NCBI RefSeq assembly: GCF_024700075.1
Contig: NZ_JAJONE010000001.1
Span: 3,557,001 to 3,621,000 of the forward strand
Reading direction: 5' to 3'
Source of the DNA: Hymenobacter sp. J193
GTDB taxonomy: Bacteria; Bacteroidota; Bacteroidia; Cytophagales; Hymenobacteraceae
DNA length: 64,000 bases
In this document: in pieces, positions 12,460 to 43,493 of the stretch
Numbering within the stretch: the first letter of the stretch is position 1
How the letters are laid out: each line of letters begins with the position of its first letter
Position numbers and translations under genes: made by a program
The notes under the pieces: generated by a model
What the model was told of the DNA's origin: nothing
Seen by the model: only the letters and a program-made list of their open reading frames with translations
The model's database searches: none

Positions 12460-12553
12460 GTCATGTTGAGCGCAGCCGAAGCATCTCTACCTCTGGCTAA
12501 CTCCTTAGGTTGAGGACGAACCGGTAGAGATACTTCGACAAGCTCAGCATGAC
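12460..12553. repeat. GTCATGCTGAGC palindromic element (REP/MITE-like), copy 1
   Basis: About 94 bp with inverted ends GTCATGTTGAGC and GCTCAGCATGAC and inner arms GAAGCATCTCTACC / GGTAGAGATACTTC around a short variable centre. The arms differ (GCAGCC on the left, CTTGTC-type on the right). Intergenic; shares its sequence with copies at 34825, 53313, 59291 and 63889. Confidence 0.85.
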
Positions 12554-20466: not shown

Positions 20467-20477
20467 AGGAGTTACTG

Positions 20478-20555
20478 GTTTCTAGTTGCTGGTTGCTGGT
20501 TGTCGGCCAGAACACTAAAAAGGCAACTAGAAACCAGCAACCAGCAACTAGAAAC
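20478..20555. repeat. Perfect 24-bp inverted repeat between susC and susD (TTGCTGGTT family)
   Basis: Arms at 20478-20501 and 20532-20555 are exact reverse complements over 24 bp with a 30-nt spacer. Each arm contains CTAGTTGCTGGTTGCTGG or its complement. It starts 11 bp after the susC stop and ends 12 bp before the susD ATG. In RNA this would be a long hairpin just upstream of the susD ribosome-binding region. Related to copies at 3482, 56698 and 59236. Confidence 0.85.
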
Positions 20556-20567
20556 TCAAAACAAAAG

Positions 20568-22202: not shown

Positions 22203-22215
22203 CCACCAGCTAGCC

Positions 22216-22250
22216 CGCGCTCAGCTATGTCTTCGGGGCGGCTGAGCGCG
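22216..22250 (+). terminator. Hairpin after susD
   Basis: Perfect 10-bp stem CGCGCTCAGC (22216-22225) / GCTGAGCGCG (22241-22250) with a 15-nt loop, starting 13 bp after the susD stop. There is no T-run directly behind it, so it may stabilise or attenuate the transcript and not end it. Confidence 0.55.
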
Positions 22251-22305
22251 TAGCTGCTGGCCTCTTCTAGTCTTTTCTCTAACCCACCACTTTCTGCTCT
22301 TTACC

Positions 22306-23457: not shown

Positions 23458-23471
23458 CCGGACTACACTCT

Positions 23472-23515
23472 TCCCGGGCCGGAAACCAGTGGGTAAGGTT
23501 TCCGGCCCCTTGGGA
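23472..23515 (+). terminator. Strong hairpin after the CBM9-like T9SS gene
   Basis: Perfect 12-bp stem GGGCCGGAAACC (23476-23487) / GGTTTCCGGCCC (23497-23508), extendable with outer TCCC/GGGA. No T-run follows; more likely an attenuator or 3'-end stabiliser. Confidence 0.6.
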
Positions 23516-23705
23516 AAACCCGGTGGCCGCAGTTGGCTACCGAGTGATTCTACCTGCTCATTTCTGCTCTGAGTGACCGGCGGCAGCCCTACTGCGCTGG
23601 CTGAATGTGGCCGCACGACCCCGCTTTGGGCTTGGCGGCTAGCCTATTGCCCTTTCTGGAGTACGCCTACGCTTGCCCATTTCCAGCCAACCAAACCCCA
23701 CCATC

Positions 23706-27296: not shown

Positions 27297-27302
27297 GACT
27301 CG

Positions 27303-27340
27303 TCAGCCGGGCGGCAACGGGGCTGCCCGGCTGATTTTTT
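27303..27340 (+). terminator. Canonical intrinsic terminator between two GH13 genes
   Basis: Stem TCAGCCGGGC (27303-27312) / GCCCGGCTGA (27325-27334), then six T residues (27335-27340). It begins 7 bp after the large amylase stop and ends 14 bp before the next ATG (27354). This should cut off most transcription into the following GH13/GH97 genes unless read through. Confidence 0.85.
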
Positions 27341-27353
27341 AGTGCCTGTTACC

Positions 27354-28733
27354 ATGAAAAAAACCTTTCTCGCCTCCTTTCTGCTCACCCTGCCGCTACT
27401 GCCGGTGCCCCGACCGGGGCTGGCCCAGGCGGGCGGTGCCCCGGCGGCCTACCACGATCCGGCCCAGTACGGCAAGCCCTTCCGGGGCGTGCCCGAAAGC
27501 CAGGATGCCACCATTTACCAGGTAAACATGCGCGGGTTCAGCCGGGCGGGCGACTTTCAAAGCGTCACGGCCCGGCTTGATTCGGTTAAGGCCCTGGGAG
27601 TAAATGTGGTGTATTTGATGCCCATTTTCCCGATTGGCAAGCTCAAGGCCGTGGACTCGCCCTTCGCCGTTCGCGACTATACCAGCGTGAACCCCGAGTT
27701 TGGCACCTTGGCCGACCTTCGCAAGCTGGTAGACGCCGCCCACGCCCGCGGTCTGGCCGTGATGCTGGACTGGGTGGGCAACCATACCAGCTGGGACCAC
27801 GCCTGGACCAAAGAGCACCCCGAGTGGTACGTGCACGACGACGCGGGCAACCTCGTCAACCCCATCCCGGAATGGAAGGACATCGTACAACTTGACTTCA
27901 AGAACGCTCAGCTGCGCTCCGCCATGATTCAGGCCATGCGCTACTGGGTGTTTCAGGCCAACGTGGATGGTTTCCGGTTCGACTACGCCGATGGGCCCAC
28001 GTTCGAGTTTTTCCAGGAAGCTAGCCAGAGCCTCACCTCCATCCGGGGGCGCAAAGTGCTGCTGCTGGCCGAGGGCGACAAGAAAAAGCACTTCTTTCGG
28101 GCCGGCTTCCCGCTGTGCTACGACTTTGGCTTTATCAACGTGCTAAAGCACAACATCTTTGCTGAGGGCAAAAGCGTGAAGCTGCTCGACTCCCTGAACG
28201 CCGCCGTGTACCGCAATGCCCCGCCCGCGGCGCGCATGGTGCGCTACGTGTCCAACCACGACCTGAACGCCTGGGAAGGCACCCCGCAGGAGTTTTTCGG
28301 CGGTCCGCAGGGCGCGCTGGCGGCCTTCGTGACGGCGGCCTACATGCAGGCCGTACCCATGATTTACAACGGGCAGGAAGTTGGCTACAACCAGCGCGTG
28401 CCGTTCATGGGTGCGCGCCAGCCCATCGACTGGACGCCTAATCCCGCGCTGACGGCGGAGTACAAGCGCCTCATCAAATTCCGCAACGGCAGCAATGCCC
28501 TGCGCAACGGCGAGCTAACCTCCTACAGCACCGACGACGTGTGCGCTTTCCTCAGAACGGCGGGCAAGGAGCAGGTGCTGGTGCTCATCAACCTGCGCAG
28601 CTCCCCGAAACTCTTCTCCGTTCCCGCTGGTTTGGCCGGTGCCGGCTGGCGCAACGCTTTCAGCGGGCAACCTGCTGGTACCGACCGCGCCTTCACCTTA
28701 GCGCCCTATCAGTACCTGGTGCTGCGGAAATAG
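27354..28733 (+). CDS. GH13 alpha-amylase-family enzyme, periplasmic
   Basis: 459 residues from ATG 27354. Signal peptide (MKKTFLASFLLTLPLLPVPR, cut after GLAQA), no lipobox. Catalytic segments are MLDWVGNHTSWD, DGFRFDYADG (nucleophile), LLLAEGDK (acid/base) and VSNHDLNAWEG. No extra binding domain. Paralogue of the lipoprotein at 31020: the region from IYQVNM to DWVxNHTSWD is nearly collinear. Likely trims imported maltooligosaccharides in the periplasm, like SusA. Substrate specificity is not decided by sequence. Confidence 0.88.
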   Translation: MKKTFLASFLLTLPLLPVPRPGLAQAGGAPAAYHDPAQYGKPFRGVPESQDATIYQVNMRGFSRAGDFQSVTARLDSVKALGVNVVYLMPIFPIGKLKAVDSPFAVRDYTSVNPEFGTLADLRKLVDAAHARGLAVMLDWVGNHTSWDHAWTKEHPEWYVHDDAGNLVNPIPEWKDIVQLDFKNAQLRSAMIQAMRYWVFQANVDGFRFDYADGPTFEFFQEASQSLTSIRGRKVLLLAEGDKKKHFFRAGFPLCYDFGFINVLKHNIFAEGKSVKLLDSLNAAVYRNAPPAARMVRYVSNHDLNAWEGTPQEFFGGPQGALAAFVTAAYMQAVPMIYNGQEVGYNQRVPFMGARQPIDWTPNPALTAEYKRLIKFRNGSNALRNGELTSYSTDDVCAFLRTAGKEQVLVLINLRSSPKLFSVPAGLAGAGWRNAFSGQPAGTDRAFTLAPYQYLVLRK

Positions 28734-28744
28734 CTTGTTTGAAT

Positions 28745-28790
28745 ATTCCGGGTGGGCGCAGACATTGTCGCCCTGGCGCCCGCCCGGAAT
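28745..28790 (+). terminator. 15-bp hairpin between GH13 and GH97 genes
   Basis: ATTCCGGGTGGGCGC (28745-28759) pairs with GCGCCCGCCCGGAAT (28776-28790), one G-T pair, followed by CCTTGTTTAC. T-run weak. Ends 13 bp before the GH97 ATG. Confidence 0.55.
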
Positions 28791-28803
28791 CCTTGTTTAC
28801 ATC

Positions 28804-30918
28804 ATGCGAAAAATACTTCTTCTTTGTTTGCTTACGGCTGGCCTCCGGGCCACCGCTCAACCTGTTGCTTCCCCGCTTACCGCCCGCCTCGACCGGGTCA
28901 GCCTCACTTTTGCGCTGGCCGCTGATGGCCAGCCAACCTACGCCGTTTCCTACGGGCAGCGGCCGGTTATTAAACCCTCGCGCCTGGGCGTGGCTCTGGC
29001 CGATGGCAAGGGCTTCGACGGCCCGCTGGAGCTGGTGAACTCCGAAACCAAGGACGTGGACGACACCTGGCAGCCGGTATGGGGCGAGGTGAAAAGCATC
29101 CGCAACCACTACCAGCAGCTCACGGTGCACTTGCGCCAGCCCCAGGCTCCCGGCCGCCTCATCGACGTGGTGTTCCGCGTGTTTGCCGATGGGGTGGGCT
29201 TCCGCTACGAATTCCCGCAGCAGCCCAGCCTGCAGTACTTCACGGTGCAGCAGGAGCGCACCGAGTTCAACCTCACCGGCAACCACAAAGCCTTCTGGAT
29301 TCCCGGCGACTACGAATCCAACGAGTACGCCTACACGACCTCCAGGCTGAGCGAAGTCAACAGCGCGAATATCACCCCCATTCAGCTTAAATCGGCCCCG
29401 GAGCGGGTGCAGACGCCGCTCATGCTCAAGTCCGACGACGGGCTGTACGTGAACATCCACGAGGCCGCGCTGGTGAACTACCCGGCCCTGATGCTGAACG
29501 TGAACACCAAAACCTTCGGCCTCACGAGCCAGCTGGTGCCCTCGGCCACCGGGGCCGCGGCCTACCTGCAAACGCCCGAGCACACGCCCTGGCGCACCAT
29601 TGTAGTGGCCGACAACGCCCCCGCCGTGCTGGCCTCCAAGCTCATTCTGAACCTCAACGAGCCCACCACCCTCACCGAAACCAGCTGGATCAAGCCCCAG
29701 AAGTTTGTGGGCGTGTGGTGGGAGATGCACGTGAACAAGTCGAGCTGGAACTACTCCGATGCCACCAACCTGAAGCTGGCGGATACCAACTGGAACGCGC
29801 TGAAACCCCACGGCCACCACGGCGCCAACACCGCCAACGTGAAGCGCTACATCGACTTTGCGGCCAAATATGGCCTGCAAAGCGTGCTGGTGGAAGGCTG
29901 GAACGTGGGCTGGGAAGACTGGGCCGGCAACTGGAAAGAAGAGGTATTCGACTTCGTGACGCCTTACCCCGACTTCAACGTGCAGGAGCTGCAGCAATAC
30001 GCGGCCGCCAAGGGCATTAAGCTGCTCATGCACCACGAAACCTCCGGCTCCGTGACCAACTACGAGCGGCGCCAGGATGCCGCCCTGCGCTTTATGAAGG
30101 AGCACGGCTACGACGGCGTGAAAACCGGCTACGTGGGCCGCATCATCCCGCGCGGGGAGCACCACGACGGGCAGTGGATGGTCAACCACTTCAACCGCAC
30201 CGCCGAGAACATGGCCCGCCAGCAGATTATGGTGGACATGCACGAAGCCGTGCGGCCCACCGGCCTGCACCGCACGTACCCCAACTGGCTGGCTTCCGAA
30301 GCAGCCCGCGGCAACGAGTTCAACGCCTGGAGTGAGGGCAACCCGCCCGAGCACGAGACCATCCTGCCTTTCACCCGCCTCATGGGCGGGCCCATGGACT
30401 ACACGCCCGGCATTTTTCAGATCAAGCTCGAAGACTGGAACCCGGCCAAAAACCAGGGCAAGCAGGTGCACACCACCCTGGCCAAGCAGCTGGCCCTCTA
30501 CGTGACGATTTACTCGCCCATCCAGATGGCCGCCGACCTGCCCGAAGCCTACGAAAAGCACCTCGACGCCTTCCAGTTTATCCGCGACGTGCCCATGGAC
30601 TGGGACGACACGCGCATTCTGGCCGCCGAGCCCGGCGACTACATCACCACGGCCCGCAAAGCCAAGGGCAAGGACGAGTGGTACCTGGGCGCCATCACCG
30701 ACGAAAATGCCCGCCTGCAAACCCTGAAGCTCGATTTCCTGACGCCCGGCCAGCGCTACGAAGCCACCATCTACGCCGATGGCAAAGGTGCCAGCTGGGA
30801 CAAAAAACCGATGAGCTACCAGATCCGCAAGCAGAAAGTCGACAGCAAATCAACCCTGAAGCTACCGCTGGCCGCCGGGGGCGGGGCGGCCGTGAGCTTC
30901 AAACCCATCAGCCGCTAG
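28804..30918 (+). CDS. GH97 alpha-glucosidase (SusB-like)
   Basis: 704 residues from ATG 28804, signal peptide MRKILLLCLLTAGLRATAQP. GH97 layout: N-terminal beta-super-sandwich (about 25-290), catalytic TIM barrel (KYIDFAAKYGLQSVLVEGWN, then MHHETSGSVTNYERR with E412, and VDMHEAVRPTGLHRTYPN), and a small C-terminal beta domain. In SusB-type inverting enzymes the catalytic base is Glu at the HHET motif, present here, which argues for an inverting alpha-glucosidase. It releases glucose from alpha-glucan oligosaccharides in the periplasm, the last step before uptake. Confidence 0.92.
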   Translation: MRKILLLCLLTAGLRATAQPVASPLTARLDRVSLTFALAADGQPTYAVSYGQRPVIKPSRLGVALADGKGFDGPLELVNSETKDVDDTWQPVWGEVKSIRNHYQQLTVHLRQPQAPGRLIDVVFRVFADGVGFRYEFPQQPSLQYFTVQQERTEFNLTGNHKAFWIPGDYESNEYAYTTSRLSEVNSANITPIQLKSAPERVQTPLMLKSDDGLYVNIHEAALVNYPALMLNVNTKTFGLTSQLVPSATGAAAYLQTPEHTPWRTIVVADNAPAVLASKLILNLNEPTTLTETSWIKPQKFVGVWWEMHVNKSSWNYSDATNLKLADTNWNALKPHGHHGANTANVKRYIDFAAKYGLQSVLVEGWNVGWEDWAGNWKEEVFDFVTPYPDFNVQELQQYAAAKGIKLLMHHETSGSVTNYERRQDAALRFMKEHGYDGVKTGYVGRIIPRGEHHDGQWMVNHFNRTAENMARQQIMVDMHEAVRPTGLHRTYPNWLASEAARGNEFNAWSEGNPPEHETILPFTRLMGGPMDYTPGIFQIKLEDWNPAKNQGKQVHTTLAKQLALYVTIYSPIQMAADLPEAYEKHLDAFQFIRDVPMDWDDTRILAAEPGDYITTARKAKGKDEWYLGAITDENARLQTLKLDFLTPGQRYEATIYADGKGASWDKKPMSYQIRKQKVDSKSTLKLPLAAGGGAAVSFKPISR

Positions 30919-30921
30919 CCG

Positions 30922-30954
30922 GCCGAACTATTGCCCGCCGGCCGGGCGTTCGGC
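30922..30954 (+). terminator. Two-step hairpin after GH97
   Basis: GCCGAAC (30922-30928) / GTTCGGC (30948-30954) with an inner GCCCG (30933-30937) / CGGGC (30943-30947), 4 bp after the GH97 stop. No T-run. It precedes the lipoprotein gene at 31020 by 65 bp. Confidence 0.5.
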
Positions 30955-31019
30955 AGGTCCTCCAGTCTCCGGCCGGCTGCCCACTTTCCAACGTCTACTC
31001 AAACTCACTACGTCATCCT

Positions 31020-32420
31020 ATGTCCTTTTTCAACACCGCACGCAACTACAGTTTCACCTGCCTGACGGCGGCCAGCCTGCTGGTCGGCTGCAAGCCCGAC
31101 AAGCCCGACGCTCCCGTCCCCGTTGACCCGCCCGTCACCGAAAAGCCCACGCAATACGGTACTCCGTTCGCGGCCGTGCCCGACCGCCAGGACGCGGTGA
31201 TTTATCAGGTGAACATGCGCGCCTTCAGCCAAGCCGGCAACTTTGCCGGCGTCACGGCCCGCCTGGATTCCATTAAGGCGCTGGGCGCGAACGTGGTGTA
31301 CCTGATGCCGATTCATCCGGTGGGTCAGGTACGGAGCGTGAACTCGCCCTACGCCGTGCGCGACTACACGGCGGTTAATTCGGAGTTCGGTACGCTTGAT
31401 GACTTGCGCAGCCTGGTAGATGCTGCCCACGGCCGGGGGCTGGCGGTGATGCTGGACTGGGTGGCCAACCACACCAGCTGGGACAATGCCTGGGTTCGGG
31501 AGCACCCCGACTGGTACCTGCAGAACGCGGCCGGCACCATTCAGAGCCCGCCCAACACCAACTACACCGACGTGGCTCAGCTGAACTTCAACAGCCAGCC
31601 CATGCGCCTGGCAATGATTTCGGCCATGAAATCGTGGGTATACTCGGCCAATGTGGACGGTTTCCGCTGCGACTATGCCGATGCCGTGCCCGTTGATTTC
31701 TGGAGGCAGGCTGTGGACACCTTGCGTAACATCAAGTCGCATAAGTTGCTGCTGCTGTCGGAAGGTACCGAGTCCAGAAATCTGGCGGCGGGCTTCGATA
31801 TGAAGTTTGGCTTCAACTTCTACGGGGGCCTCTGGGACGTGTACCGCCGGGGCCAGCCCGCTACCACGTTTGATAACCTCAACATTACTGAATACGCCGG
31901 GGCCGTTATTGGTTCGCAGCCCGTAGTGCGCTATACCACCAACCATGATGTAAATGGCTCCGACGGCACGCCCGTCGCCCTGTTCGGTGGAGACGCCGGG
32001 GCCATGTCGGCCTTCGTTATTGCCTCGTGCTACAAAGGCGTGCCCATGATCTACAATGGTCAGGAATCGGGCATGAGTACCGCCATTCCGTTTCCCTTCA
32101 CATCGGTGAACGTGACCTGGGACACCCGCCCCGACGTAACCAAGGCCTACAAGCAGCTACTGCGGGCCCGCGCCGGCAGCGCCGCCCTGCGCCGCGGCAC
32201 GCCCACGGCCTACAGTAGCGCCGACGTGTGCGCCTTCACCAAAACCGAAGACTCTGAGCAGGCGCTGGTGCTAGTGAACGTGCGCAACAAGGAAGTGAAA
32301 TACACGCTGCCCGCCGCGCTGGCCAATACCACCTGGACCAACGCCCTGCAAAGCGGCACCGTAACGTTGGGCACCGAAGTAACGCTGCCAGCCTACGGGT
32401 ACCAGGTGCTGAAAAAGTAA
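31020..32420 (+). CDS. GH13 alpha-amylase-family lipoprotein (SusG-like role)
   Basis: 466 residues from ATG 31020, placed by a lipoprotein signal (TCLTAASLLVGC, Cys followed by KPDKPDAP). Linker rich in Pro, then a GH13 barrel with DWVANHTSWD, DGFRCDYADA (nucleophile), LLLLSEGTES (acid/base) and TTNHDVNGSDG. Lipid anchoring suggests it is surface- or outer-membrane-attached like SusG. It is a tandem paralogue of the soluble enzyme at 27354. Last gene of the locus, followed by a terminator at 32450-32490. The upstream in-frame opening at 30678 lies inside the GH97 gene and is spurious. Confidence 0.9.
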   Translation: MSFFNTARNYSFTCLTAASLLVGCKPDKPDAPVPVDPPVTEKPTQYGTPFAAVPDRQDAVIYQVNMRAFSQAGNFAGVTARLDSIKALGANVVYLMPIHPVGQVRSVNSPYAVRDYTAVNSEFGTLDDLRSLVDAAHGRGLAVMLDWVANHTSWDNAWVREHPDWYLQNAAGTIQSPPNTNYTDVAQLNFNSQPMRLAMISAMKSWVYSANVDGFRCDYADAVPVDFWRQAVDTLRNIKSHKLLLLSEGTESRNLAAGFDMKFGFNFYGGLWDVYRRGQPATTFDNLNITEYAGAVIGSQPVVRYTTNHDVNGSDGTPVALFGGDAGAMSAFVIASCYKGVPMIYNGQESGMSTAIPFPFTSVNVTWDTRPDVTKAYKQLLRARAGSAALRRGTPTAYSSADVCAFTKTEDSEQALVLVNVRNKEVKYTLPAALANTTWTNALQSGTVTLGTEVTLPAYGYQVLKK

Positions 32421-32523: not shown

Positions 32524-34795
32524 CTACCTAACTACCTCCGCCTCGGTTTCCACGGCCTCTGATGATTCCTCCCGGTCGAACCGGGCCAGCAGCAGCGGGA
32601 ACACCAGCAGCTCGGCATAAAAAGCCGCCACAACGCTCCCGGCCGTGAGCAGCCCGAATAGCATTACCGTTTTCAGCGAAGCCAGCGTCATGGCCAGGTA
32701 GCCAACGAACAGTACCCCGCTGGACAGCAGAATAGTAGGCCCTACGTGGGTGATGGTAGCGAAGCGCGCTGCCGCCGGGGTGAGCTTTTGGCGGCGCAGC
32801 TGCTGGTAGTGATGCACGAAATGCACGGTGTCGTCGGTGCAGAGGCTGAGTACGATGGCGGCAATGCTGGCCGTGGCCGTGTCGAGGGCAATACCGGCCC
32901 AGCCCATGAATCCCAGCAGCAAAAGCACCGGCAGCAGGTTGGGCGCCAGCGTGAGCAGGGCCAGCCGGAAGCTGCCCACAAACCACCACACCAGCCCGAA
33001 TATCACCACCGCCGACCACCCCAGGCTGCTGGCCTGGGAGCGGGTTACGTAGTCAACGATGCGGGCGTAGAGCGGCTGGTAGCCAGCCGCCCGCACCACG
33101 GCCACGGGCCCCAGCGTATTACGCGCCATGCGCAGCAGCGCCTCCGACTTGGCTGTGAGCTCCCGCGCCGAAAGCATGGGACCGGCTACCGTAATACGCC
33201 CCGTGCCGGATTGCTCGTCGATAAACTGTCGGGTAAGCTGGGGGTAATCGGGGACGAGGCGGGCGTGTACGCGGTTGAGCAGGCTTTGGCTGCCCAGGGC
33301 CGCCCGCGCCCGGCTGGCGGGCACTACCGTTTCCAGCCCCGCGAGGTAGAGCGTGTGGAAGCCCGTCACCCGGCCCACGCCCCGTAGCGTGCGGGCCGAG
33401 TCGGCAAAGGCCACCGCCGCCTGCACCACGGCGGCTTCGTGCAGGGTGTGGCCGGGGCGGGGCTCTATCAGCAACTCCAGCGGCATGTAGGCGCCCCAGG
33501 TGCGCTGCATGGCGGCGTGGTCCCGCACAGCCGCGTGGTCGTCGGGGAAATAGCCCAGCGTGTAGGTATCGGCCCGCAGCCGGAGCGCGCCAAAGGCGGC
33601 AGCCACCGTAAGCACCAGTGCCAGGGCCGTGAGTTGGCGCGGGTGGGCTTCCACCCAGGTATAGATACGCGCCAGGCTGCCCGCCGCCTGCATGGTGGCG
33701 CGGGGCTGGCCCCGGTAGCCAGGCAGCAGCAGGGCACCCAGCAGAAACGTAAAAAACAAACACAGCACAATGCCCAGGGCCGCGAAGCCTCCGAACGTGC
33801 GCAGAATAGCCATGGGGCTGGAAACCAACGCTAGAAAGCCGGCGGCCGTGGTGAGCATGGTTGCCAGGCAGGGGGGCCAACGTGCGGCGCAGGGCAGTCA
33901 GTGCCGCCGCGTGGGGCGTCTGGCCGGGCTCCGTGAGCACCAGATTACGCTCATTGATGACGTGTAGCGCGTCCATAATTCCCAGCAGAATCAGGATCAT
34001 GGGCAGCAGCACCGTCATCAGGTTGAGGCGGTAGCCCATGGCCCCGTATACGCCCAGCGTGAGGTAGGTAGCCAGCCCCACAATGCCTACCACGTACAGC
34101 AGCAGGCGCCCGTTGCGGTACAGCAGCAGCAAAGCCAGGAACATCAGCCCGTAGCCCAGCCCCAGAAACCGCCCAAAGTCCTGCTCCGATAGCGCATTCA
34201 GCCCTGCGTAGAGCACGCCCACGCCCCCCAGCCAATACTGACCTTGCGGCAGGTGCCGGGCTACTACCCCGCGAATCTGCGCCAGAATATCTGCGCGCCG
34301 GGCATCAAACGTAGCGCTGGGCTTCAACTCGATGAGCAGGCGGGTTGTCTGGAAATCGGGCGAGAACAACTGCTCCTGCAACGTGGGCAGGCGGCTCAGG
34401 TCCTGTCGCACTTGAGCTTCGGTGGTGCGGGCCGAAAGCAGCGGGTGCGCCTCGGCCGTCAGCCCCCGCCCGGCAATAGTAGTGGTGCCCGGCCCCAACA
34501 CGGCGGCTACGTCGGGCAGGGCGGCCAGCTCCTGGCTGAGAGCGGGCAGGCTGCTCAGGTAGGGCGTCCGCAGCAAACCCACGGAGTCGTGCACTACCAG
34601 CGTCACTACCTCGTCGTTGCCGAAGCGGGCCTGGTAGTCGCGGTAGGCGCGCAGGGCCGGGTCACCTTCCAGAAACCACACCGACAGGCTATTGTCGATC
34701 TGCACCGCCGTGTGCACGCCGGGGGCCAGCGCCACCACCAACGCCGCCACCAGGGCCAGCAGCCAGAAACGGAAACGGTAGACGAAATCAATCAT
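32524..34795 (-). CDS. MMPL/RND-superfamily membrane exporter, frameshifted as read
   Basis: Once one base is removed this is a 756-residue two-lobed MMPL transporter. The N-terminal part, from ATG 34795 (MIDFVYRFRFWLLALVAALV), includes the first periplasmic loop and transmembrane bundle with LGIMDALHVINER. The C-terminal part has FGALRLRADTYTLGYFPDD and a second bundle with LSLCTDDTVHFVHHYQQLRR, the relay-type motif of the family. The break is in six G residues at 33871-33876: as read TLAPLPGN, with one base removed TLAPCLATMLTTAAGFLAL. 2272 nt equals 757 codons plus one. RND/MMPL proteins of this size often move lipids or hydrophobic products by proton force. Follows the UbiA and DUF3419 cluster, so possibly its exporter. 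Confidence 0.8.
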
Positions 34796-34939: not shown

Positions 34940-35842
34940 CTACCACCGCCGCGCTATTTCCGCAATAATGGACACGTAGCTGCTGAGCATGAACAGGGAG
35001 GTGAGCAGCTCGGCCAGCTTGAGGGCCCGGGCCGAGGGGCGGCGCAAGCTCCAGGCGTAGGCCGCCGCCGTGGCCGCGTACAAGGCCGCTAACAGCCAGA
35101 ACGGCCAGGCGCGGGCCTCCAGCCGCTGCAGCAGCACGCCCTGGGTGAATACTCCCGCCAGCAACACCACCAGCACTGCCGCCACGGCACCCCCGTACCC
35201 AAGGGCGCGGGAGTAGGAATCAAGGCCGGGGCGCTCATCGGCCGGCACCCTGATTTTGCGGGCTATTTCGAAGGCCAGGCCCCCGAACACGCTCAGTAGG
35301 CCGAGTAGCCCCAGGGGCGGGGTGAGCAGGGGCGGGGCCGCGTAGGCTGCCCACAGCCAGCCAATGAGCAGGGGCATCACTAGGATGTGGGTGAGGGCGT
35401 AGAGCACGAGGCGGGGCCGCAGGTAGTTGGGCACGAAGAACTCGTAGCGCATCAGTAGGCTGTAGCCCACGGCCAGCGCCCAGCCCACCACAGCCCGCCA
35501 CCCCATGCCCACCGACCACGCCACTTCCAGCAGCGTACCCACGGCGGCTACGGCTTGCAGCTGCCCCAGCGTCACATGGCCCTGCTGAAGCACCCGCTCC
35601 GGGTGGTGCTCCAGGTCGGTGGCGTAGTCCTTGATTTCGTCGAACACCCGCAGCCGGAAAAAGAAGCTGATGGTAGCCACCACGCCCAGCCACTCCGGCC
35701 AGCCCCAGGCCCGCTGTGCCCCCGGTCCGGCCTGCAAAGCCGCCGCCACGCTGTACACGGTGCCAAATAGAATGGCAAACAGCGCCATGTTTACGGGCGG
35801 GAACCGCTGCCGCAGATACGCCCCAAAGGCTGGTAAATTCAT
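34940..35842 (-). CDS. UbiA-family membrane prenyltransferase-like protein
   Basis: 300 residues, about nine hydrophobic helices. The first aspartate-rich motif is RVFDEIKDYATD (DExxDxxxD type), with a basic residue pattern FEIARKIRVPADE in the place of the second, as in UbiA enzymes that join a prenyl chain to an acceptor. It acts in the inner membrane. Same strand as the biosynthetic operon upstream but separated by 178 bp with a repeat element, and by a repeat from the exporter downstream, so co-transcription is uncertain. Acceptor unknown. Confidence 0.8.
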   Translation of the reverse strand: MNLPAFGAYLRQRFPPVNMALFAILFGTVYSVAAALQAGPGAQRAWGWPEWLGVVATISFFFRLRVFDEIKDYATDLEHHPERVLQQGHVTLGQLQAVAAVGTLLEVAWSVGMGWRAVVGWALAVGYSLLMRYEFFVPNYLRPRLVLYALTHILVMPLLIGWLWAAYAAPPLLTPPLGLLGLLSVFGGLAFEIARKIRVPADERPGLDSYSRALGYGGAVAAVLVVLLAGVFTQGVLLQRLEARAWPFWLLAALYAATAAAYAWSLRRPSARALKLAELLTSLFMLSSYVSIIAEIARRW

Positions 35843-36020: not shown

Positions 36021-37082
36021 TCATAGCTCCCGCGCATACAGCGCGTAGTGGGCCGTTTCGTAGGGGAAGCCGTCGGTGAAGTGGCGGGAGAAGTTGTCGG
36101 TGCGCATCAGGCAGAAGATGATGTCGTCGTAGTATTCCCGGAACGACACCATCCCGTAGGCCCCGAGGTAGGACATCAAACCCTGCTGACGATAGTCGGG
36201 GTGCACGCCCACGGTTTTGGCCAGCAGGGTGCGGTGCTGCAGGCGCGGGTAGTGCTGCTGAAAGGTAGCCGGCTCAGTAGCGGGCAGGTGCAGCGGGGCA
36301 TAGTTGGGGTGGCAGAAACTCTGAGCTACCAGCCTGCCGGTGCTCCACTCACGCAGCAGCACGGAGGTATGCGGGCACAGCTTTTCGGCGTAGGCGCGGT
36401 TGTAAAGCAGCTTAAACTGCGCCGCCGACACCGGTCGGTAGGCCGGATTGGCCCCGTAAATGGCCTGTATAAGCTCAAAAATAGCCTCTTCGTGTTCCTG
36501 CCAAACGTCCGGGGCCAGGGACACAAACTCAAACGGCACCTGCTGCAGTTGAGCCAGCAGGGCAGCTTTGTTGTCGTACACTATAGGCACCACAGCGGGC
36601 TGCAGCAGGCGGCTTTCAAACGTAAGGGTGGGCACAAAGCCCAGGTCCGTCAGCAGCCCGGCGTAGTAGGCGGGGTTTACGGGTTCCGCGTCAAACTGCC
36701 CCCAGGAAGGCACCGCGCCCAAGCGCAAGCGGTAACGGTGAAACGTGCTGAAGCACAGCGGCCCCACCAGCCGGCGGTAGCCACGGCGTCGGGCCTCGGC
36801 CGCCAGTTGGGCAAATGCCTGCTGGTTGAGCGACGCATCGGGCAGGGTTTCCCAAAGGCCGAAGAAGGCATCGGTGCCCTCCTGCGGGAAAATCCCCAGC
36901 AGGCGCAACGTTTCATGGTCGGTGTAGAGCAGCACCTCGTGGCGGGCGGCTTCCTCGGCTACCACGGCCGCCAGCACTTCCGCGTGCTCGCGCAGGGGCA
37001 CCACTTCGGTAGCATATACAGCGGCCGGAATCTGCCAGAAGGAATCGGGCAATTGCCCGTTATAAGTAAGGCACTCAAGCAT
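36021..37082 (-). CDS. GNAT-like N-acyltransferase
   Basis: 353 residues from ATG 37082 (MLECLTYNGQLPDSFWQIPA), overlapping the previous stop by 8 bp; a GTG at 37100 is an alternative. The C-terminal part has the acetyl-CoA pyrophosphate loop-type segment TVGVHPDYRQQGLMSYLG, with the conserved VHPxYRxxGL. The longer N-terminal half may be a second, degenerate GNAT-like lobe. Its position as fifth gene of a packed operon with a ligase, aminocarboxypropyl transferase, kinase and phosphotransferase suggests acylation of the same small molecule or lipid. Acyl donor and acceptor unknown. Confidence 0.7.
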   Translation of the reverse strand: MLECLTYNGQLPDSFWQIPAAVYATEVVPLREHAEVLAAVVAEEAARHEVLLYTDHETLRLLGIFPQEGTDAFFGLWETLPDASLNQQAFAQLAAEARRRGYRRLVGPLCFSTFHRYRLRLGAVPSWGQFDAEPVNPAYYAGLLTDLGFVPTLTFESRLLQPAVVPIVYDNKAALLAQLQQVPFEFVSLAPDVWQEHEEAIFELIQAIYGANPAYRPVSAAQFKLLYNRAYAEKLCPHTSVLLREWSTGRLVAQSFCHPNYAPLHLPATEPATFQQHYPRLQHRTLLAKTVGVHPDYRQQGLMSYLGAYGMVSFREYYDDIIFCLMRTDNFSRHFTDGFPYETAHYALYAREL

Positions 37083-39768
37083 GTCTGGGAGATAAAGCAC
37101 TCGGATTTTCGGCCGCAGGCTGGGTGGCGGGCAGCAGCTGCAGCGTGCCGCATTGCCCGTCGAGCACTACGCGCTGCCCGCTTTGCAGCTGCTGCGTCAG
37201 GCCGGGCACGTTGATGATGGTGGGAATGCCCAGCTCCCGCAGAATGATAACGGAGTGCGACAGGGAAGAGCCTTTTTCGATGGCCACGGCCCGGCAGGCC
37301 GGAAACAGCGTGGCCCAGCCGGGGTCGGTGCGCAGGGCACACACGATCTTGCCGGCTACGTTCAGGTCGTCCTCGGGGCGGCGTACTACCAGCGCCTCGC
37401 CCTCTACCACGCCGGGGTAGCAGCCTGTGCCGCGCAAAACTCCATCGGTTTCCCCGACTGCGGCCGGCAGCATGCGCACGGGGGCCGCCGGCACCGTTAC
37501 GCGCGCGGGCACCGCCAGCTGTTCGTAGCGGGCAAATTCCTGCTGGCGGGCAGCTACCAGCGCGGGTAGGTCGGTAGTATGGGCCGGGGGCGGGGAAAGC
37601 CAGATGCCGGGCGCGGGCGAAGGCAGCGCCGGCGCCGGGGTGGCCGGAGTGCCGGTCAGGGCTTCGGCTATTTCGTTTTCCGTCAGCATAAACACGTCCT
37701 CGGGCTGGAAGAGGTGACCGGCCTGGGTTAGCCGTTCCCCGGCCGCCCGGTACAGGCTGCGGTACATACCAAACAGACGGGTGCGCTCCAGTCGCAGGGC
37801 CTCACGGTGCCGAATGGCCTCCTGCAACCCAGTCAGGCTGCGGGTCAGCGCCCACCGCCGCAGGCGCGGCAACCGGTTCAGCAGCGCTTCTATATCAGTG
37901 GCGGCGCTTGGGCTTATGCCTGACGGATTAGCAGCTGTAGCAGCAGGGGGCACGGCCACCAGGTTGCGCAGGTATTGGTAGAAGATGCGCGGCTGGGTGC
38001 GCATGGTGGCCGTTTCCAGCTTCAGCTCGCCCACCGTCCGGTCGCCAAATTCCTCCCTAAACTGTCGGGCGGCCTGCTCGAACTGAGGGTAGCTTGCGGC
38101 TACCTGCTCGGCTACATCGGCGGGCAAAGCCTGGATCAGCTCGGGCAGGCCGGTGTGGGTGTGCGCCTGCCGGGCCAAAGCCAACAGGCGGTGCACGGGC
38201 TGCACGCTCGCCAGCTGCTGGTCGGAGGCCAGGTAGCGGCGCAGCAAATCTTCAGGCTCGGCCACGCCGGCAGCCCGCAGGTTGCGCAGGGCCCGGCCGT
38301 TGGCCATCATCACCCGAAAGTCGTTGATGATGGGCGTGGTCCAGTGGCTGAGCAACTCCTCATCAAGGCGGGTCTTTTCAGCCAGCAGTTCCGCACCGCT
38401 GAACTGGGCCAGGGGAAGCGTGTAAAACCGCTGGTAAGCAGCCGCCAGGCGGGCATGGAAGGCCGGTACGGCCCGGCGCAAGCTGGCAAAAGCCGCCAGC
38501 AGCCGCAATAGGTTGGCCGCCAGGCGTGGGGCACTGCGCAATTGCTCCAGGCGGCTGCGGCGCGGGGGCTGCACAAAGTCTACGGGCTCCTCCAGGCCCA
38601 TCATGCGCTCCATGTCGGCCTTGTTCTGCTGAAATGAAGGCAGCAGCAGCAAGCCCCGGTACCAGTGGTTTATGTGGTAGTAGATGCGCCCCTGCACCAG
38701 TACCAGCAGCTGCGTAACTACCGGCTCGTGGGCCTCCACCTCGGCAGCCGGCACGCCCAGGGCCCGCATGGTCTGGCGGTACACTGTGGCGTAGGCCCGC
38801 CGCGCAAAGCTGAACGTGAGGGGCGTGGTCACCCCGCAGTAGCTTTCCTGAATATTGGAATTGTCGAAAACCAGCAGCTCGGGAATGGGCTGGGTGATGG
38901 GCCGGGCCTGTACCACCCACAGCCGGTCGGCTTCATCCACCACAAACTCCACGTCCTGCGGTCCACCCATAGCCGTTTCCAGCTGCTGGCCAAGTGTATG
39001 CAGTTGGGTTAGCTCCGCCGGACTAAGGCTGGGAGCCAACTGCTCTTCTGCTGCCACAGGAGCTTGGTGCAGGCCTGCGGCTCCCAATACAACTGCCAAC
39101 CGTTGGGCCTTGTCGGCCAGCTGCTGGTGGGTCAGCTCGCCGGTGGCTTTGCGCAGGTAGAACTCGTCGGGTTGCTGGGCCCCGCTTACCAGGGCCTCGC
39201 CAAACCCCCAAAGCGCGTGAATGGTCATTTCCATCGGATACTCCGGCCAGGTGGAAAACAGCACGCCGCTGGTGAGGGCCGCCACCTGCGCCTGCACCAC
39301 CACCGCCGGCCGGGCCGCCAGGGGCAGGCCGCGCTGCCGGCGGTAGGCGCGGGCCCGCACCGAGTAGGCGCTGGCCGCGCACCGGGCCACCGCCGCCCAT
39401 ATCTCGTCCTCGCTTGTCAGGTTCAGAAAGGAGTCCATCAGCCCGGCAAAGGAATGGCCGGCCCCGTCCTCATCTGCCACCGAGGAACGCACCGCTACCG
39501 GGCGGGCCGGAAAGTCCCAGCCGGTAAGCTGCACCCGTAGCGCGGCGCGGTCTTCGGGCGTGGGCTCGTAGGCTAGTAAGGAAGCCTGCCGGGTGTCCAG
39601 GTCGGCGTCGGAGGCGGCGGGCAAAGCGGTAAACAATGGCGCGAAGGCATCGGCGGGCAACACCGCAAAGGGCGGCACCGCCACACCCAGCTGGCGCAGC
39701 CGGAACAAGCCGGCGGCCTTGCCACCGATGGCCGCCGCGCCGGGCGCCAAGGAATCGGGGAGCAGCAT
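37075..39768 (-). CDS. Dikinase-like phosphotransferase (RPH/L-glutamine kinase type, no PEP barrel)
   Basis: 897 residues. N-terminal PPDK/PEP-synthase ATP-grasp domain (about 1-310; IGGKAAGLFRLRQLGVAVPP, RPVAVRSSVADEDGAGHSFA, DVEFVVDEADRLWVVQARPI). A large central substrate domain (about 320-770) follows, then a C-terminal swivelling domain with phosphohistidine H838 in KGSSLSHSVIILRELGIP. PEP synthase has a further PEP-binding barrel after this domain; here it is absent. That is the layout of rifampin phosphotransferase and of Campylobacter L-glutamine kinase, which move a phosphate from ATP to a small molecule. Its ATG overlaps the upstream stop by one base, so translation is coupled to the APH-like kinase. 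Substrate unknown. Confidence 0.8.
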   Translation of the reverse strand: MLLPDSLAPGAAAIGGKAAGLFRLRQLGVAVPPFAVLPADAFAPLFTALPAASDADLDTRQASLLAYEPTPEDRAALRVQLTGWDFPARPVAVRSSVADEDGAGHSFAGLMDSFLNLTSEDEIWAAVARCAASAYSVRARAYRRQRGLPLAARPAVVVQAQVAALTSGVLFSTWPEYPMEMTIHALWGFGEALVSGAQQPDEFYLRKATGELTHQQLADKAQRLAVVLGAAGLHQAPVAAEEQLAPSLSPAELTQLHTLGQQLETAMGGPQDVEFVVDEADRLWVVQARPITQPIPELLVFDNSNIQESYCGVTTPLTFSFARRAYATVYRQTMRALGVPAAEVEAHEPVVTQLLVLVQGRIYYHINHWYRGLLLLPSFQQNKADMERMMGLEEPVDFVQPPRRSRLEQLRSAPRLAANLLRLLAAFASLRRAVPAFHARLAAAYQRFYTLPLAQFSGAELLAEKTRLDEELLSHWTTPIINDFRVMMANGRALRNLRAAGVAEPEDLLRRYLASDQQLASVQPVHRLLALARQAHTHTGLPELIQALPADVAEQVAASYPQFEQAARQFREEFGDRTVGELKLETATMRTQPRIFYQYLRNLVAVPPAATAANPSGISPSAATDIEALLNRLPRLRRWALTRSLTGLQEAIRHREALRLERTRLFGMYRSLYRAAGERLTQAGHLFQPEDVFMLTENEIAEALTGTPATPAPALPSPAPGIWLSPPPAHTTDLPALVAARQQEFARYEQLAVPARVTVPAAPVRMLPAAVGETDGVLRGTGCYPGVVEGEALVVRRPEDDLNVAGKIVCALRTDPGWATLFPACRAVAIEKGSSLSHSVIILRELGIPTIINVPGLTQQLQSGQRVVLDGQCGTLQLLPATQPAAENPSALSPRHA

Positions 39769-40940
39769 CAGGCGGGAAGTTCGGGCAGCCAGGGTTGCAG
39801 CTGGTCGAGAGTGTCGAAGTAGCTGGCCACCACCCGGGGCAGGTAGGGGTAGGGGCTTACGGTGTGGGCCATCAGGTACATGCCCAGGCGGTGCAGCCCA
39901 AAGTCGAAAGCGGCCAGCCCGGCGAGGCGGTGGAAATTATCGGCATCGGCAAACAAACCAGTGCGGGCGTGCAGCTGCTGGCGGTAAAACTCCAGGTAGT
40001 CCAGGCGCTGAGCATAGCGTTCCGGGGTCAGCACAAAGCTCAGCAGTTCCACCACATCGTACACGGGCACATGGTAAGTGGCCAGCTCCCAGTCGTAGGC
40101 GCAAAGCTGCAAACCCACGGCGGTTTGCCGGAAGCAGGTGTTGCGCGGGTTCAGGTCGTTGTGCACCAGGGTGCGGGGCGCGGCGGCCAGCTCCGGCCAG
40201 TACCGGGGCAAAGCATCCAGCGCGGCCTGCAGCCGGGCGGCTCGTGCCGGCGGGTACAGCTCGGGCAGGCGGGTGGCGGCGTTGGTCAGCAGGGCCTGCC
40301 ACAGCGGCCGTTGCGCCAGCATAAAGTCGAGGGTAGGAGCGTCGGCCCAGGGTAGTGGAGCACCAGCGGGCAGCAGGTGAGCGGCGTGCCAGTCGGCCAG
40401 CTGGGTGAGGGTGGTGCGCAGGTGCTCGTCGGTCCAGCGCCCGGGCTCCATCACCGAGTTCAGCAGCTGCATGTCCGGTCCCAGGTGTTCCATCAGAATG
40501 GCGTACACACCGGCCGCTTCGTCGCGGTGCAGGCCCCGGATGGCGGGCATCAGGCTCAGGTCCGGCTGGGCGTACACTGCTAGTTCCCGATGATGGGTAT
40601 GAGCGAAGCCGGTGTTCAGCATGTGAGCAGGGTACACCTTGGCCAGGTCCCCGCCGCAGGCTTGGGCCAGGGCACCCAGCATAGCCGATATTTCGGTGCC
40701 GGGCGGCTTGAGCTTGAGCACGAGGTCTTCGGTGTGCTCCTGCCCGGCCGCCTCGTAGCGCACCCGCAGCCCGTAGTGCCCAATGGGCCGCCCGCTGTGC
40801 CCGGCCGTGAGCACCGCCAGAATGCTGGCCGAGTTATCGAGGGCAAACGGCTCCACTGCCAGTACCCGCACGGGCGCGGGCAGGGTGGTTTGCAGCAGCG
40901 TTTCTACAAACGCCGGAGTGCAGTAATCAGCAAGTTTCAT
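39768..40940 (-). CDS. APH/choline-kinase-fold phosphotransferase
   Basis: 390 residues. Catalytic loop LVHNDLNPRNTCF (D262) and metal-binding CAYDWELATYH (D283) are the Brenner and DxE motifs of aminoglycoside phosphotransferase/choline kinase-fold enzymes. The Lys of the nucleotide site is likely in LVLKLKPPG. It should phosphorylate a hydroxyl of a small molecule using ATP in the cytoplasm. Its start overlaps the DUF3419 stop by 4 bp (ATGA), and its stop overlaps the start of the dikinase-like gene, so it is tightly coupled in this operon. Antibiotic resistance is possible but not favoured by context. Confidence 0.82.
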   Translation of the reverse strand: MKLADYCTPAFVETLLQTTLPAPVRVLAVEPFALDNSASILAVLTAGHSGRPIGHYGLRVRYEAAGQEHTEDLVLKLKPPGTEISAMLGALAQACGGDLAKVYPAHMLNTGFAHTHHRELAVYAQPDLSLMPAIRGLHRDEAAGVYAILMEHLGPDMQLLNSVMEPGRWTDEHLRTTLTQLADWHAAHLLPAGAPLPWADAPTLDFMLAQRPLWQALLTNAATRLPELYPPARAARLQAALDALPRYWPELAAAPRTLVHNDLNPRNTCFRQTAVGLQLCAYDWELATYHVPVYDVVELLSFVLTPERYAQRLDYLEFYRQQLHARTGLFADADNFHRLAGLAAFDFGLHRLGMYLMAHTVSPYPYLPRVVASYFDTLDQLQPWLPELPA

Positions 40941-42061
40941 AGCAGCACGAGGGAAGAAGCAGTGGAAGGAGAGGAGGCCGCAACGGCCGGAGCGGGAAAG
41001 TTTAGCAAGCGGGCATCGGGCAGGTAAAAGCAGGTGCCGGGCAGGGCCGCTACGGGCGTGGGCTCCAGTCCGTCTAAGCCGGCGTCGCCCTGGGCTTGCA
41101 GCAGGTTCCAGTACACCAGCCGCAGGTTGCCGCGGGCCTGCAGCGCGTGCATGGCCTGCGCAAACTCCGTGGGGCTCACGTACTCAAAGATATTGGAGAG
41201 GCTGGCCCGGGTGATGGTGCGGCCGGCCGGGCTGAGCAGATATGCCACGGCCTCACCGGTCTGGATGCTCAGGTGCGGCAGGCGGGCACGCAGCCGGGCA
41301 AAGTGGCGCGCCTGATAGCAGGGCGGCAGAATGGCCTCGGGCAGGTTCTCAGGGCCAAAAAAGAAAAAGCGGAAAAAGAAGTTGTCGGCCAGTAGCTCGG
41401 TAGCTGCCTGGTGGCGCAGGCGCCGGTAGAACGCGGCCCCGCCCGATTCTTCGGCGTAGCGAAACAGGCGCGGGTCGCGGCCCTTGCTCAGGTTGGCCTC
41501 ATCAAAGTACGTTTCGAACTGTCCCCGGAAGGCTGTGTTGTGCAGATATTGCTCGAAGTAAACACGCTGCTCCGCCACCGTGGGGAACTGAATCAGCTGC
41601 CGCAAGTGCTGCTGCGTGGCCTCCGGCAGGGTAGGCAGGAAGCCGTGCAGGTAGCTTTCCAGCTTGCCGGCCGTGAGCAGCCCGGCCGGATGCTCAGTTA
41701 GCTGCCGGTCCCAGTACGCCTGCAGATCGGCAGAAAGTTGAGGCGCAGCCTCGGCCCAGGCGGCGGCCACGGCCGCCGGCCCATCGAGCCCCAGCAGCGC
41801 CCGGAATACAGCGTGGGGGAAATGCCCGATCAGGTAGGTTTTAAACTGCAGCAGTGCGTTCTGCACCGGGTTCAGGTCGAGGGCCGTGACGTGGCGGGCC
41901 TCGCTGAGCAGCGCGTTCAGGGCGTTGCAGCCGGCGGAGGTAATGATGAGTGCTTCGTCGGTGGGGCCCAGGGGCAGGGCCGCCTGCAGAGTGGCCGCGC
42001 TTTCCCACACCAGCGAGTAGCGAATCCGGTCGAGTGCGACGTGGTGAAATTCGGTGTGCAT
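40937..42061 (-). CDS. DUF3419 (BtaA-like) SAM 3-amino-3-carboxypropyl transferase
   Basis: 374 residues from ATG 42061 (MHTEFHHVALDRIRYSLVWE). Family hallmarks are IITSAGCNALNALLSEARHV followed by TALDLNPVQNALLQFKTYLI, the SAM-binding core of DUF3419, and the C-terminal SLSNIFEYVSP. In BtaA, the known member, the 3-amino-3-carboxypropyl group of SAM is moved to diacylglycerol to make a homoserine ether lipid. No BtaB-type N-methyltransferase is present in the window, so a mature betaine lipid is not expected from this cluster alone. It begins 4 bp after the ligase stop. Acceptor unknown; lipid or small molecule. Confidence 0.85.
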   Translation of the reverse strand: MHTEFHHVALDRIRYSLVWESAATLQAALPLGPTDEALIITSAGCNALNALLSEARHVTALDLNPVQNALLQFKTYLIGHFPHAVFRALLGLDGPAAVAAAWAEAAPQLSADLQAYWDRQLTEHPAGLLTAGKLESYLHGFLPTLPEATQQHLRQLIQFPTVAEQRVYFEQYLHNTAFRGQFETYFDEANLSKGRDPRLFRYAEESGGAAFYRRLRHQAATELLADNFFFRFFFFGPENLPEAILPPCYQARHFARLRARLPHLSIQTGEAVAYLLSPAGRTITRASLSNIFEYVSPTEFAQAMHALQARGNLRLVYWNLLQAQGDAGLDGLEPTPVAALPGTCFYLPDARLLNFPAPAVAASSPSTASSLVLL

Positions 42062-42065
42062 GAGG

Positions 42066-43493
42066 TTAGCGTAAGGCAGCGTAGCGGATTTTAGACAAAT
42101 GACGCGCATCAACGGGCAGCTGGGCGCGAAAGTGAACCTGTTGGCACAGGCCCGGCGGAAACTGGGCTTCCAGCGCCGCTTGGATGGTTTCCGCCGCCAC
42201 GCGCCCCTGCACGAACACGGAAAAGCCAGCACCCTGCGCCCGCGCCGCCACCCGCTCCACGCCCGGCAGGTGCTGCAGCACGTGCTCCACCTGGTAGTGC
42301 TGCACGCCCTGCACCAGGGTTTCGTTGCCCTGCCGCCCCGTCAGCCACAGGTGCTGCCGCTCGTCGAAGAAGCCGAAGTCCCCGGTGGCCAGCCAGGCAT
42401 CAGCCGCCACGTGGGGCCCGCGCACCAGGATTTCACCGGCATCATAGGCCTGACCATCGGGCAGCCGCAACTGGCCGATTTTTCTCAGCCGGCATTCCAG
42501 CCCCGCCACCAAGGGCCCGGCGTAGTAGCCGTTCCGGGGGCTGGCAGGCGAGGTGCCGGCCGTGCGCACGGCAATGGGCTCTGCTTCGGAGGAGCCGTAG
42601 ATGCCGTAAATCGTTGCGTGCGGAAAGCATTTTTGCAGCTCCGTCAGCAGCTTTTCCGGCACCGGTGAGCCGCCCACGCCCACGGCCCGCACCTGGGGCA
42701 ACGGATGGTTCTGGCGACGGAGAAAGGCACTCAGTCGGTTGAAGTAAAAGACGTTGCCGGTGAGGGTTTCGATGCCTTCCGAGTGCAGCTGCTCCGCCAC
42801 CCGGGCGGCGTCGAAATCGGCCAGGCGTCCCCAGGGCACATCGGGCAGGATGCTCACGGCGCCCACGGCCAGGTTGTGCAGCAGCACGTTCGGAAACAGC
42901 GGAAAGTCGCGCTGGCCCGGCCACGGCGGAAACACCTGCTTCAGCACCTCGTGCTGGGCCGTGAGCACGCGGTGGCTGCGCCGGATGGCCTTCGAGCGGC
43001 CCGTAGAGCCCGAGCTGTGCGACACCAGGGCAGCCTGAGTGGCAGGCACGGCCGTTGGCGTTTGCACGTCCGGAGCAGGATTGCTGGGCAAACCGGGGAA
43101 CAGCGGCTGCACGCCTGCCAGCCTAAGCAGCCAGCCGTAGCGCCCGGCCAGCGCCCGGCCAACTGCTGCCTGCCGGATGCTGTGGCGGCGCAGCAGCCGG
43201 AGCAGCGCCAGCGGCCCTGCCCCAGCAGGCGGCAGCACCGGCACTGCCCCGTGGGCCATAGTGCCCAACAGGGCCACCACCAGCTCCACGCTCACGGGCA
43301 CTGCTATCAGCACCGCCTGGCCGGGAAGGGCCTGCGCCCGGATCAGCTGCCGCCGGAAAGCTTCTACCCGCCCCAGAATATGGGCGCCGGTATAGGTGCG
43401 GGCCGGGCCGGCGGGCTGGGCCCATACCAGGCACACCTGCCGCGGGTGCTGGCGCAGGTTTTCGTAAACGGCATGACAGAAGTTAGACAGCAT
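42066..43493 (-). CDS. ANL-superfamily adenylate-forming ligase
   Basis: 475 residues from ATG 43493 (MLSNFCHAVYENLRQHPRQV); an upstream in-frame start at 43529 is possible. P-loop-like motif SHSSGSTGRSKAI (ending near K168), IYGIYGSSEAEPIA, WLATGDFG, and a short C-terminal domain with the catalytic lysine in DARHLSKIRY. It activates a carboxylic acid as acyl-AMP. No acyl-carrier protein, condensation or ketosynthase gene lies nearby, so the acyl group is likely passed to CoA or directly to an amine, for instance on the product of the following enzyme. First gene of the five-gene operon. Confidence 0.85.
   Translation of the reverse strand: MLSNFCHAVYENLRQHPRQVCLVWAQPAGPARTYTGAHILGRVEAFRRQLIRAQALPGQAVLIAVPVSVELVVALLGTMAHGAVPVLPPAGAGPLALLRLLRRHSIRQAAVGRALAGRYGWLLRLAGVQPLFPGLPSNPAPDVQTPTAVPATQAALVSHSSGSTGRSKAIRRSHRVLTAQHEVLKQVFPPWPGQRDFPLFPNVLLHNLAVGAVSILPDVPWGRLADFDAARVAEQLHSEGIETLTGNVFYFNRLSAFLRRQNHPLPQVRAVGVGGSPVPEKLLTELQKCFPHATIYGIYGSSEAEPIAVRTAGTSPASPRNGYYAGPLVAGLECRLRKIGQLRLPDGQAYDAGEILVRGPHVAADAWLATGDFGFFDERQHLWLTGRQGNETLVQGVQHYQVEHVLQHLPGVERVAARAQGAGFSVFVQGRVAAETIQAALEAQFPPGLCQQVHFRAQLPVDARHLSKIRYAALR

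Follow-up and report, generated by a model that had tools for sequence, protein, structure and literature searches.

A conserved DUF3419-containing gene cluster in Hymenobacter and other Bacteroidota as a candidate pathway for an unusual exported aminolipid

Overview

The window, a 64,000-nucleotide stretch of the Hymenobacter sp. J193 genome, contains a cluster of seven genes in which a DUF3419 protein is accompanied by an ANL-superfamily enzyme, an APH/EcKL-type kinase, a dikinase-like phosphotransferase, a GNAT-like protein, a UbiA-like membrane enzyme and an MMPL-family exporter (Table 1), and most of this set, with its characteristic motifs, recurs in related genomes. Our best reading is that the cluster encodes a pathway, not previously described, to an exported, aminocarboxypropyl-bearing, N-acylated lipid, where we infer both the product and the order of the steps; to the broader proposal, that the cluster is a dedicated accessory pathway building and exporting an unusual aminolipid, we assign about even confidence. 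No description of this gene set was found in open-licence full-text literature. The cluster ties DUF3419 clades of Bacteroidota and of an alphaproteobacterial plasmid to an enzyme set quite unlike the betaine-lipid one, predicts a lipid or metabolite that so far has no genes assigned, and gives defined knockout targets. Two further features stand out: a UbiA subfamily whose catalytic motif is altered, and an HMG-CoA reductase (HMGR) homologue that is the sole copy in genomes with no detected HMG-CoA synthase.

Table 1. Genes of the cluster in window coordinates, with lengths and main profile matches.
Feature	Coordinates	Strand	Remarks
ANL-superfamily adenylating enzyme	42066..43493	-	475 aa; C-terminal PxDxRHxSK-type motif; PF00501 4.8e-31
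DUF3419 protein	40937..42061	-	374 aa; PF11899 1.8e-41; predicted SAM-dependent 3-amino-3-carboxypropyl transferase
APH/EcKL-type kinase	39768..40940	-	390 aa; PF01636 7.5e-14, PF02958 1.2e-6
Dikinase-like phosphotransferase	37075..39768	-	897 aa; PF01326 (PPDK_N) 3.7e-56, PF00391 (PEP-utilizers) 2e-16
GNAT-like acyltransferase	36021..37082	-	353 aa; no domain match of its own; aligned with same-slot relative
UbiA-like membrane transferase	34940..35842	-	300 aa; PRK05951 2.5e-25, below cut-off; 178 bases past GNAT
MMPL-family exporter	32524..34795	-	split over two frames, junction near 33872; PF03176 on both pieces

Gene organization in the window

The original prediction described five minus-strand genes with spacings of +4, -4, -1 and -8 bases, and the ORF coordinates bear this out: a gap of 4 bases between ANL and DUF3419 is followed by overlaps of 4 (DUF3419/APH), 1 (APH/dikinase) and 8 bases (dikinase/GNAT, from the ATG), the last becoming 26 bases if an alternative GTG start at 37100 is used for GNAT. 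Pfam also backs four of the five gene identities then proposed (ANL, DUF3419, APH and dikinase), the fifth, GNAT, being the one with no Pfam or NCBIfam match of its own. The extent given to the unit (36021..43493) was too short, since the UbiA-like and MMPL genes, both overlooked, belong to it, and including these two membrane proteins shifts the reading towards a lipid. The MMPL gene is continuous in a close relative (L032), and its split in the window is either true decay or an assembly error. Compared with H. guriensis, whose DUF3419 protein is 95% identical to that of the window, the window genes are under purifying selection (dN/dS 0.08-0.24 for the five genes and 0.09 for UbiA).

Conservation and distribution of the cluster

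Using the DUF3419 alignment alone, we retrieved 33 loci from species genomes. ANL, dikinase, GNAT and UbiA each accompany DUF3419 in 32 of them, APH in 31 and MMPL in 22, counts that take in a H. rubripertinctus locus where DUF3419 and APH are fused in frame as an 806-residue open frame (L049) and another where the dikinase lies in two frames (L059). All five genes of the original prediction, far from being rarely together, co-occur in 30 of the 33 loci, a linkage that exceeds chance, and the same 30 also have UbiA. This six-gene set extends over Hymenobacter, Pontibacter, Fibrella, Gramella, Pedobacter, Nonlabens and others, and forms a compact cassette in a Nonlabens MAG (L061). Among the exceptions, two Pedobacter loci (L058, L063) are without APH, with no other recognizable kinase found in its place, and L051 is a remnant with DUF3419 and APH only; 11 loci have no MMPL nearby, one of them (L047) being a contig whose end falls in UbiA. 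The packed one-strand operon holds for the window but not as a general order, as only two relatives (L032, L033) are arranged like it and two more (L040, L045) have a different one-strand order; in the 28 with convergent halves, ANL-DUF3419-(APH) faces GNAT-dikinase-UbiA, so that the order in the window is a local arrangement. The ORF families common to at least 10 of the 33 loci are, in our reading, the seven cluster genes plus shadow frames and two neighbours unrelated to the cluster, and besides the cluster genes and shadow frames no family was found in more than 11. Since these comparisons covered ORFs of at least 90 aa, a small carrier protein would escape them.

In a set of 120 Hymenobacter genomes, each of three proteins is present in 22: DUF3419 at E 1e-40, UbiA at E 1e-8, and the dikinase at no less than 600 bits. 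DUF3419 coincides with UbiA in 21 genomes and with the dikinase in 21, while UbiA and dikinase coincide in 22 (Fisher 3e-21 for the DUF3419 pairs and 2e-24 for UbiA-dikinase, values that ignore shared ancestry). One exception, G420, has DUF3419 without UbiA or dikinase, as in the L051 remnant; in the other, G499, whose genome is 82% complete and in about 910 contigs, no DUF3419 was found. In a wider set of 395 Bacteroidota genomes, 32 have DUF3419 (E 1e-10) and ten give a match to the UbiA profile, adjoining DUF3419 in every case; because eight of these ten had themselves supplied rows to the profile, the informative part of this result is the absence from the remaining genomes. The cluster is accessory and moves as a block. 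A search for plasmid-borne copies found none of the core clade and a single distant cluster. Two of the 22 Hymenobacter carriers (G399 and G507) have one in-frame stop in the dikinase gene, the match coordinates in G399 being those of L059.

DUF3419 proteins of the cluster and of betaine-lipid operons

DUF3419 is familiar mainly from betaine lipids. The cluster protein is in the same Pfam family as BtaA (1.8e-41) and has the same putative SAM-binding positions, WE(D), SAGxN and DxN, that are common to all DUF3419 subfamilies aligned (L010, L015, L022 and L025 were left out), and a BtaB-like methyltransferase finds two weak matches in the window genome (25.6 and 22.7 bits; 2.2e-5 and 1.6e-4). 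These features would suit ordinary DGTS betaine-lipid synthesis with BtaB encoded elsewhere in the genome, an explanation that we nonetheless hold to be very improbable, given the neighbours and the phylogeny of the cluster proteins. No ORF resembling the BtaB-like methyltransferases of L077/L078 was found at any of the 33 loci, which agrees with the earlier statement that BtaB is missing beside the cluster, and DUF3419 has instead five or six other conserved partners. Moreover, in a midpoint-rooted tree of 36 DUF3419 rows (25 of 29 phylum-sample loci, the window with nine of the 33 core loci, and one plasmid; L018, L020, L023 and L028 were left out), the BtaB-like-adjacent proteins form their own clade (11 rows, 100/99), whereas those of the clusters fall in two others, one of core rows (10 rows, 100/100) and one of dikinase-adjacent rows (nine rows, 99/93). 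The core and dikinase-adjacent rows lie on one side of the root together with L003, with support of only 89/89; the wider locus of L003 is L073, which also has dikinase and UbiA. Long branches (L064, L015) weaken the fine detail of this tree. BtaB-linked proteins read LLD..DW at a site where the remaining DUF3419s read LS..FEY. The predicted model of the window protein has a pLDDT of 82.5, and a search by sequence found no credible solved-structure relative of DUF3419.

In 15 of the 29 phylum-sample loci (L014, L016-L021, L023, L024, L026-L031), DUF3419 adjoins a methyltransferase that we take to be BtaB-like, as we do those of L077/L078, Pfam assigning only general methyltransferase domains; these 15 loci are likely betaine-lipid operons. 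At L074 (9073-11870), a membrane methyltransferase domain of PEMT/ICMT-like type precedes DUF3419 in a fusion protein, whose neighbours include a GNAT-type gene and a DAG kinase (PF00781 2.9e-23) but neither UbiA nor dikinase. Since this DUF3419 also falls, with weak support (83/80), on the BtaB side, we left it out of the pathway considered here.

The UbiA-like membrane enzyme

Enzymes of the UbiA superfamily bind Mg-diphosphate through two acidic motifs, and aspartates are expected at the second site. In 18 aligned rows of the cluster enzyme the first motif is kept as DExKDxxxD (D68, E69, K71, D72, D76), but the second is changed, R195, K196 and E203 being invariant there. This makes ordinary prenyl-diphosphate chemistry doubtful, and use of an ordinary prenyl-diphosphate by the enzyme is plausible but not assured. 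PF01040 is assigned to most of the best 120 homologues; no Pfam family matches the protein of the window. The cluster enzyme thus resembles UbiA prenyltransferases such as digeranylgeranylglyceryl phosphate (DGGGP) synthase, chlorophyll synthase and EboC/Ubi-297 in detectable homology and in the first motif, and differs from them by an invariant Arg-Lys in place of the second. One acidic Mg-diphosphate motif of UbiA enzymes is described in PMC9235831. The partner genes of the ebo cluster, as named in the same paper, are unlike those of the cluster enzyme, EboA, EboB, EboD and EboE not being, in our reading, among the families conserved at the 33 loci.

The nearest solved structures to the UbiA profile are DGGGP synthase, the closest (5.4e-10), and chlorophyll synthase, and a PcrB/GGGPS homologue (3.5e-32) is encoded in the genome of the window. 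This raises an archaeal-type ether lipid as an alternative, in which the UbiA-like enzyme would prenylate a prenylglycerol supplied by the GGGP synthase of the genome, and DUF3419 would add its aminocarboxypropyl headgroup there rather than to diacylglycerol. We consider this improbable, because the second acidic motif is changed, GGGPS lies outside the cluster, the window UbiA gets no DGGGPS model match, and its plasmid relative scores only 24-25 bits against DGGGPS cut-offs of 296-353.

ANL, APH, dikinase-like and GNAT-like proteins

Two NCBIfam models, OleC (9.6e-27) and PRK09274 ('fatty acid CoA ligase family'; 7.9e-58), match the window ANL without reaching their cut-offs. The ANLs of core and distant clusters alike have the C-terminal PxDxRHxSK-type motif. 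OleC has an RHxxK-type C-terminal motif, and the likeness to OleC and PRK09274 lies in being ANL enzymes with such a motif; the differences are the scores and the conserved neighbours, which in our reading are not those of an ole cluster. In the APH/EcKL protein, which we propose as a putative lipid-alcohol or headgroup kinase, HND and YDWEL motifs are conserved across the core. The GNAT-like protein of the window, with no match among Pfam, NCBIfam or credible PDB profiles and a predicted model of pLDDT 91.5, aligns at 22% identity with its counterpart at the equivalent position of a distant cluster (L065), which itself matches Acetyltransf_7 (7.6e-10); the same-slot protein of L066 has no GNAT match.

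The dikinase-like protein has the Rph/PigC/RedH-type layout of ATP-binding, middle and swivelling His domains on one chain, with PPDK_N and PEP-utilizers as the sole Pfam domains found and no PEP-binding barrel. LSH in the swivel domain is conserved in core and distant proteins (the split L059 was left out of the alignment). Its NCBIfam matches include RedH (5.9e-65) and PigC (4.4e-61), but it stands far under the equivalog cut-offs (219/999 bits for Rph, 207/1300 for PigC and 220/1350 for RedH). Such matches, together with the patchy spread of the cluster (22 of 120 Hymenobacter genomes), might point to a small or amphiphilic secondary metabolite, for which the dikinase would act as a PigC/RedH-like ATP-driven condensing ligase, UbiA would prenylate a small scaffold and MMPL would export the product. 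This reading is unlikely, though the least so of the alternatives that we weighed, since the characterised ligases are remote (207-220 bits against 1300-1350), no further ORF family of at least 90 aa is shared widely among the 33 loci, and the distant clusters hold lipid-type enzymes.

Distant versions of the cluster

Nine (L065-L073) of 14 stretches retrieved around distant DUF3419s combine DUF3419 with dikinase, UbiA and a GNAT-like gene. Seven of them (L065, L067-L072) also have an HMGR homologue and ANL; the other two (L066, L073) lack ANL and have a PS-decarboxylase homologue plus a gene resembling fatty-acyl reductases, L066 carrying MMPL pieces as well. A DAG kinase occupies the kinase slot of L073, and eight of the nine clusters have a membrane protein that, from its motifs, we take to be of the phytol/dolichol-kinase type, the proteins scanned giving no match to such a family in Pfam or NCBIfam. 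As the kinase family changes between versions, a lipid-alcohol-kinase slot seems to be kept while the family filling it is exchanged. An alphaproteobacterial plasmid, from Roseinatronobacter, has the order HMGR-UbiA-dikinase-DUF3419-kinase-GNAT-ANL, with HMGR spanning the record start (L079/L080).

The cluster HMGR is the only HMGR in three (G278, G207, G016) of five HMGR-bearing genomes tested, and HMG-CoA synthase (PF01154), present in seven of 14 control genomes, was found in none of eight tested. We considered that this HMGR might be repurposed, but the residues that we take to be catalytic appear intact in an alignment of ten rows (L101, mis-called, was unusable), so that the substrate is not readable from sequence. 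Clusters of the core clade include no reductase gene, and co-distribution of HMGR with the cluster in Hymenobacter was rejected, HMGR being present in 113 of 120 genomes.

Proposed pathway

Aminocarboxypropyl transfer, phosphorylation and acylation would all be compatible with the enzyme families of the cluster. In the aminolipid pathway that we propose, DUF3419 would transfer the 3-amino-3-carboxypropyl group of SAM to a hydroxyl group on a lipid or on its precursor, and the UbiA-like membrane enzyme would attach a long isoprenoid or alkyl chain. The APH/EcKL kinase, whose slot is elsewhere occupied by the phytol-kinase-like protein or DAG kinase, would phosphorylate an alcohol, and the dikinase-like enzyme would make a second ATP-driven phosphoryl transfer via its swivelling histidine. 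An acid activated by ANL would be placed on the amino group by GNAT, and MMPL would export the product.

A lipid product is favoured over a soluble one by the conserved core, by the neighbouring MMPL gene and by the lipid-type enzymes that distant clusters contain. The aminolipid reading draws further support from the six-gene set in 30 of 33 loci with its co-occurrence in Hymenobacter, the constant position of the UbiA profile beside DUF3419 (10 of 10 Bacteroidota genomes having it), the gene order of the Roseinatronobacter plasmid, and the DAG kinase, PS decarboxylase and fatty-acyl-reductase homologues and MMPL pieces in clusters with UbiA and dikinase, as well as from the in-frame DUF3419-APH fusion and purifying selection. 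Several points speak against it. Enzymes of the ANL, GNAT and APH families can also use small soluble substrates; the core lacks a reductase, and the spread of HMGR in Hymenobacter does not follow the cluster; no kinase was recognized at two Pedobacter loci; and MMPL, frame-split in the window, is missing from the vicinity of 11 of the 33 loci. The reading is weakened too by the altered second UbiA motif and by a phytol-kinase swap partner named from motifs, with no Pfam or NCBIfam match. More tentatively, the cluster might specify a new lipid class, with an isoprenoid or alkyl chain and an ether-linked, N-acylated and in some lineages perhaps decarboxylated 3-amino-3-carboxypropyl headgroup. 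Such lipids would be made by an old, portable pathway whose kinase and reductase parts have been swapped among unrelated families, with, at its centre, a UbiA-like enzyme in which an Arg-Lys pair replaces one Mg-diphosphate site.

Surroundings of the cluster in the window

A starch-use locus with a TonB-dependent receptor, SusD, three alpha-amylase-domain proteins and GH97 occupies 17215-32420 on the plus strand. The window also has seven copies, with at most three mismatches, of a 24-base interspersed repeat (at 12462, 35957, 53315, 59293, 59360, 63891 and 63953; none in 100 shuffles), one of which falls between GNAT and UbiA.
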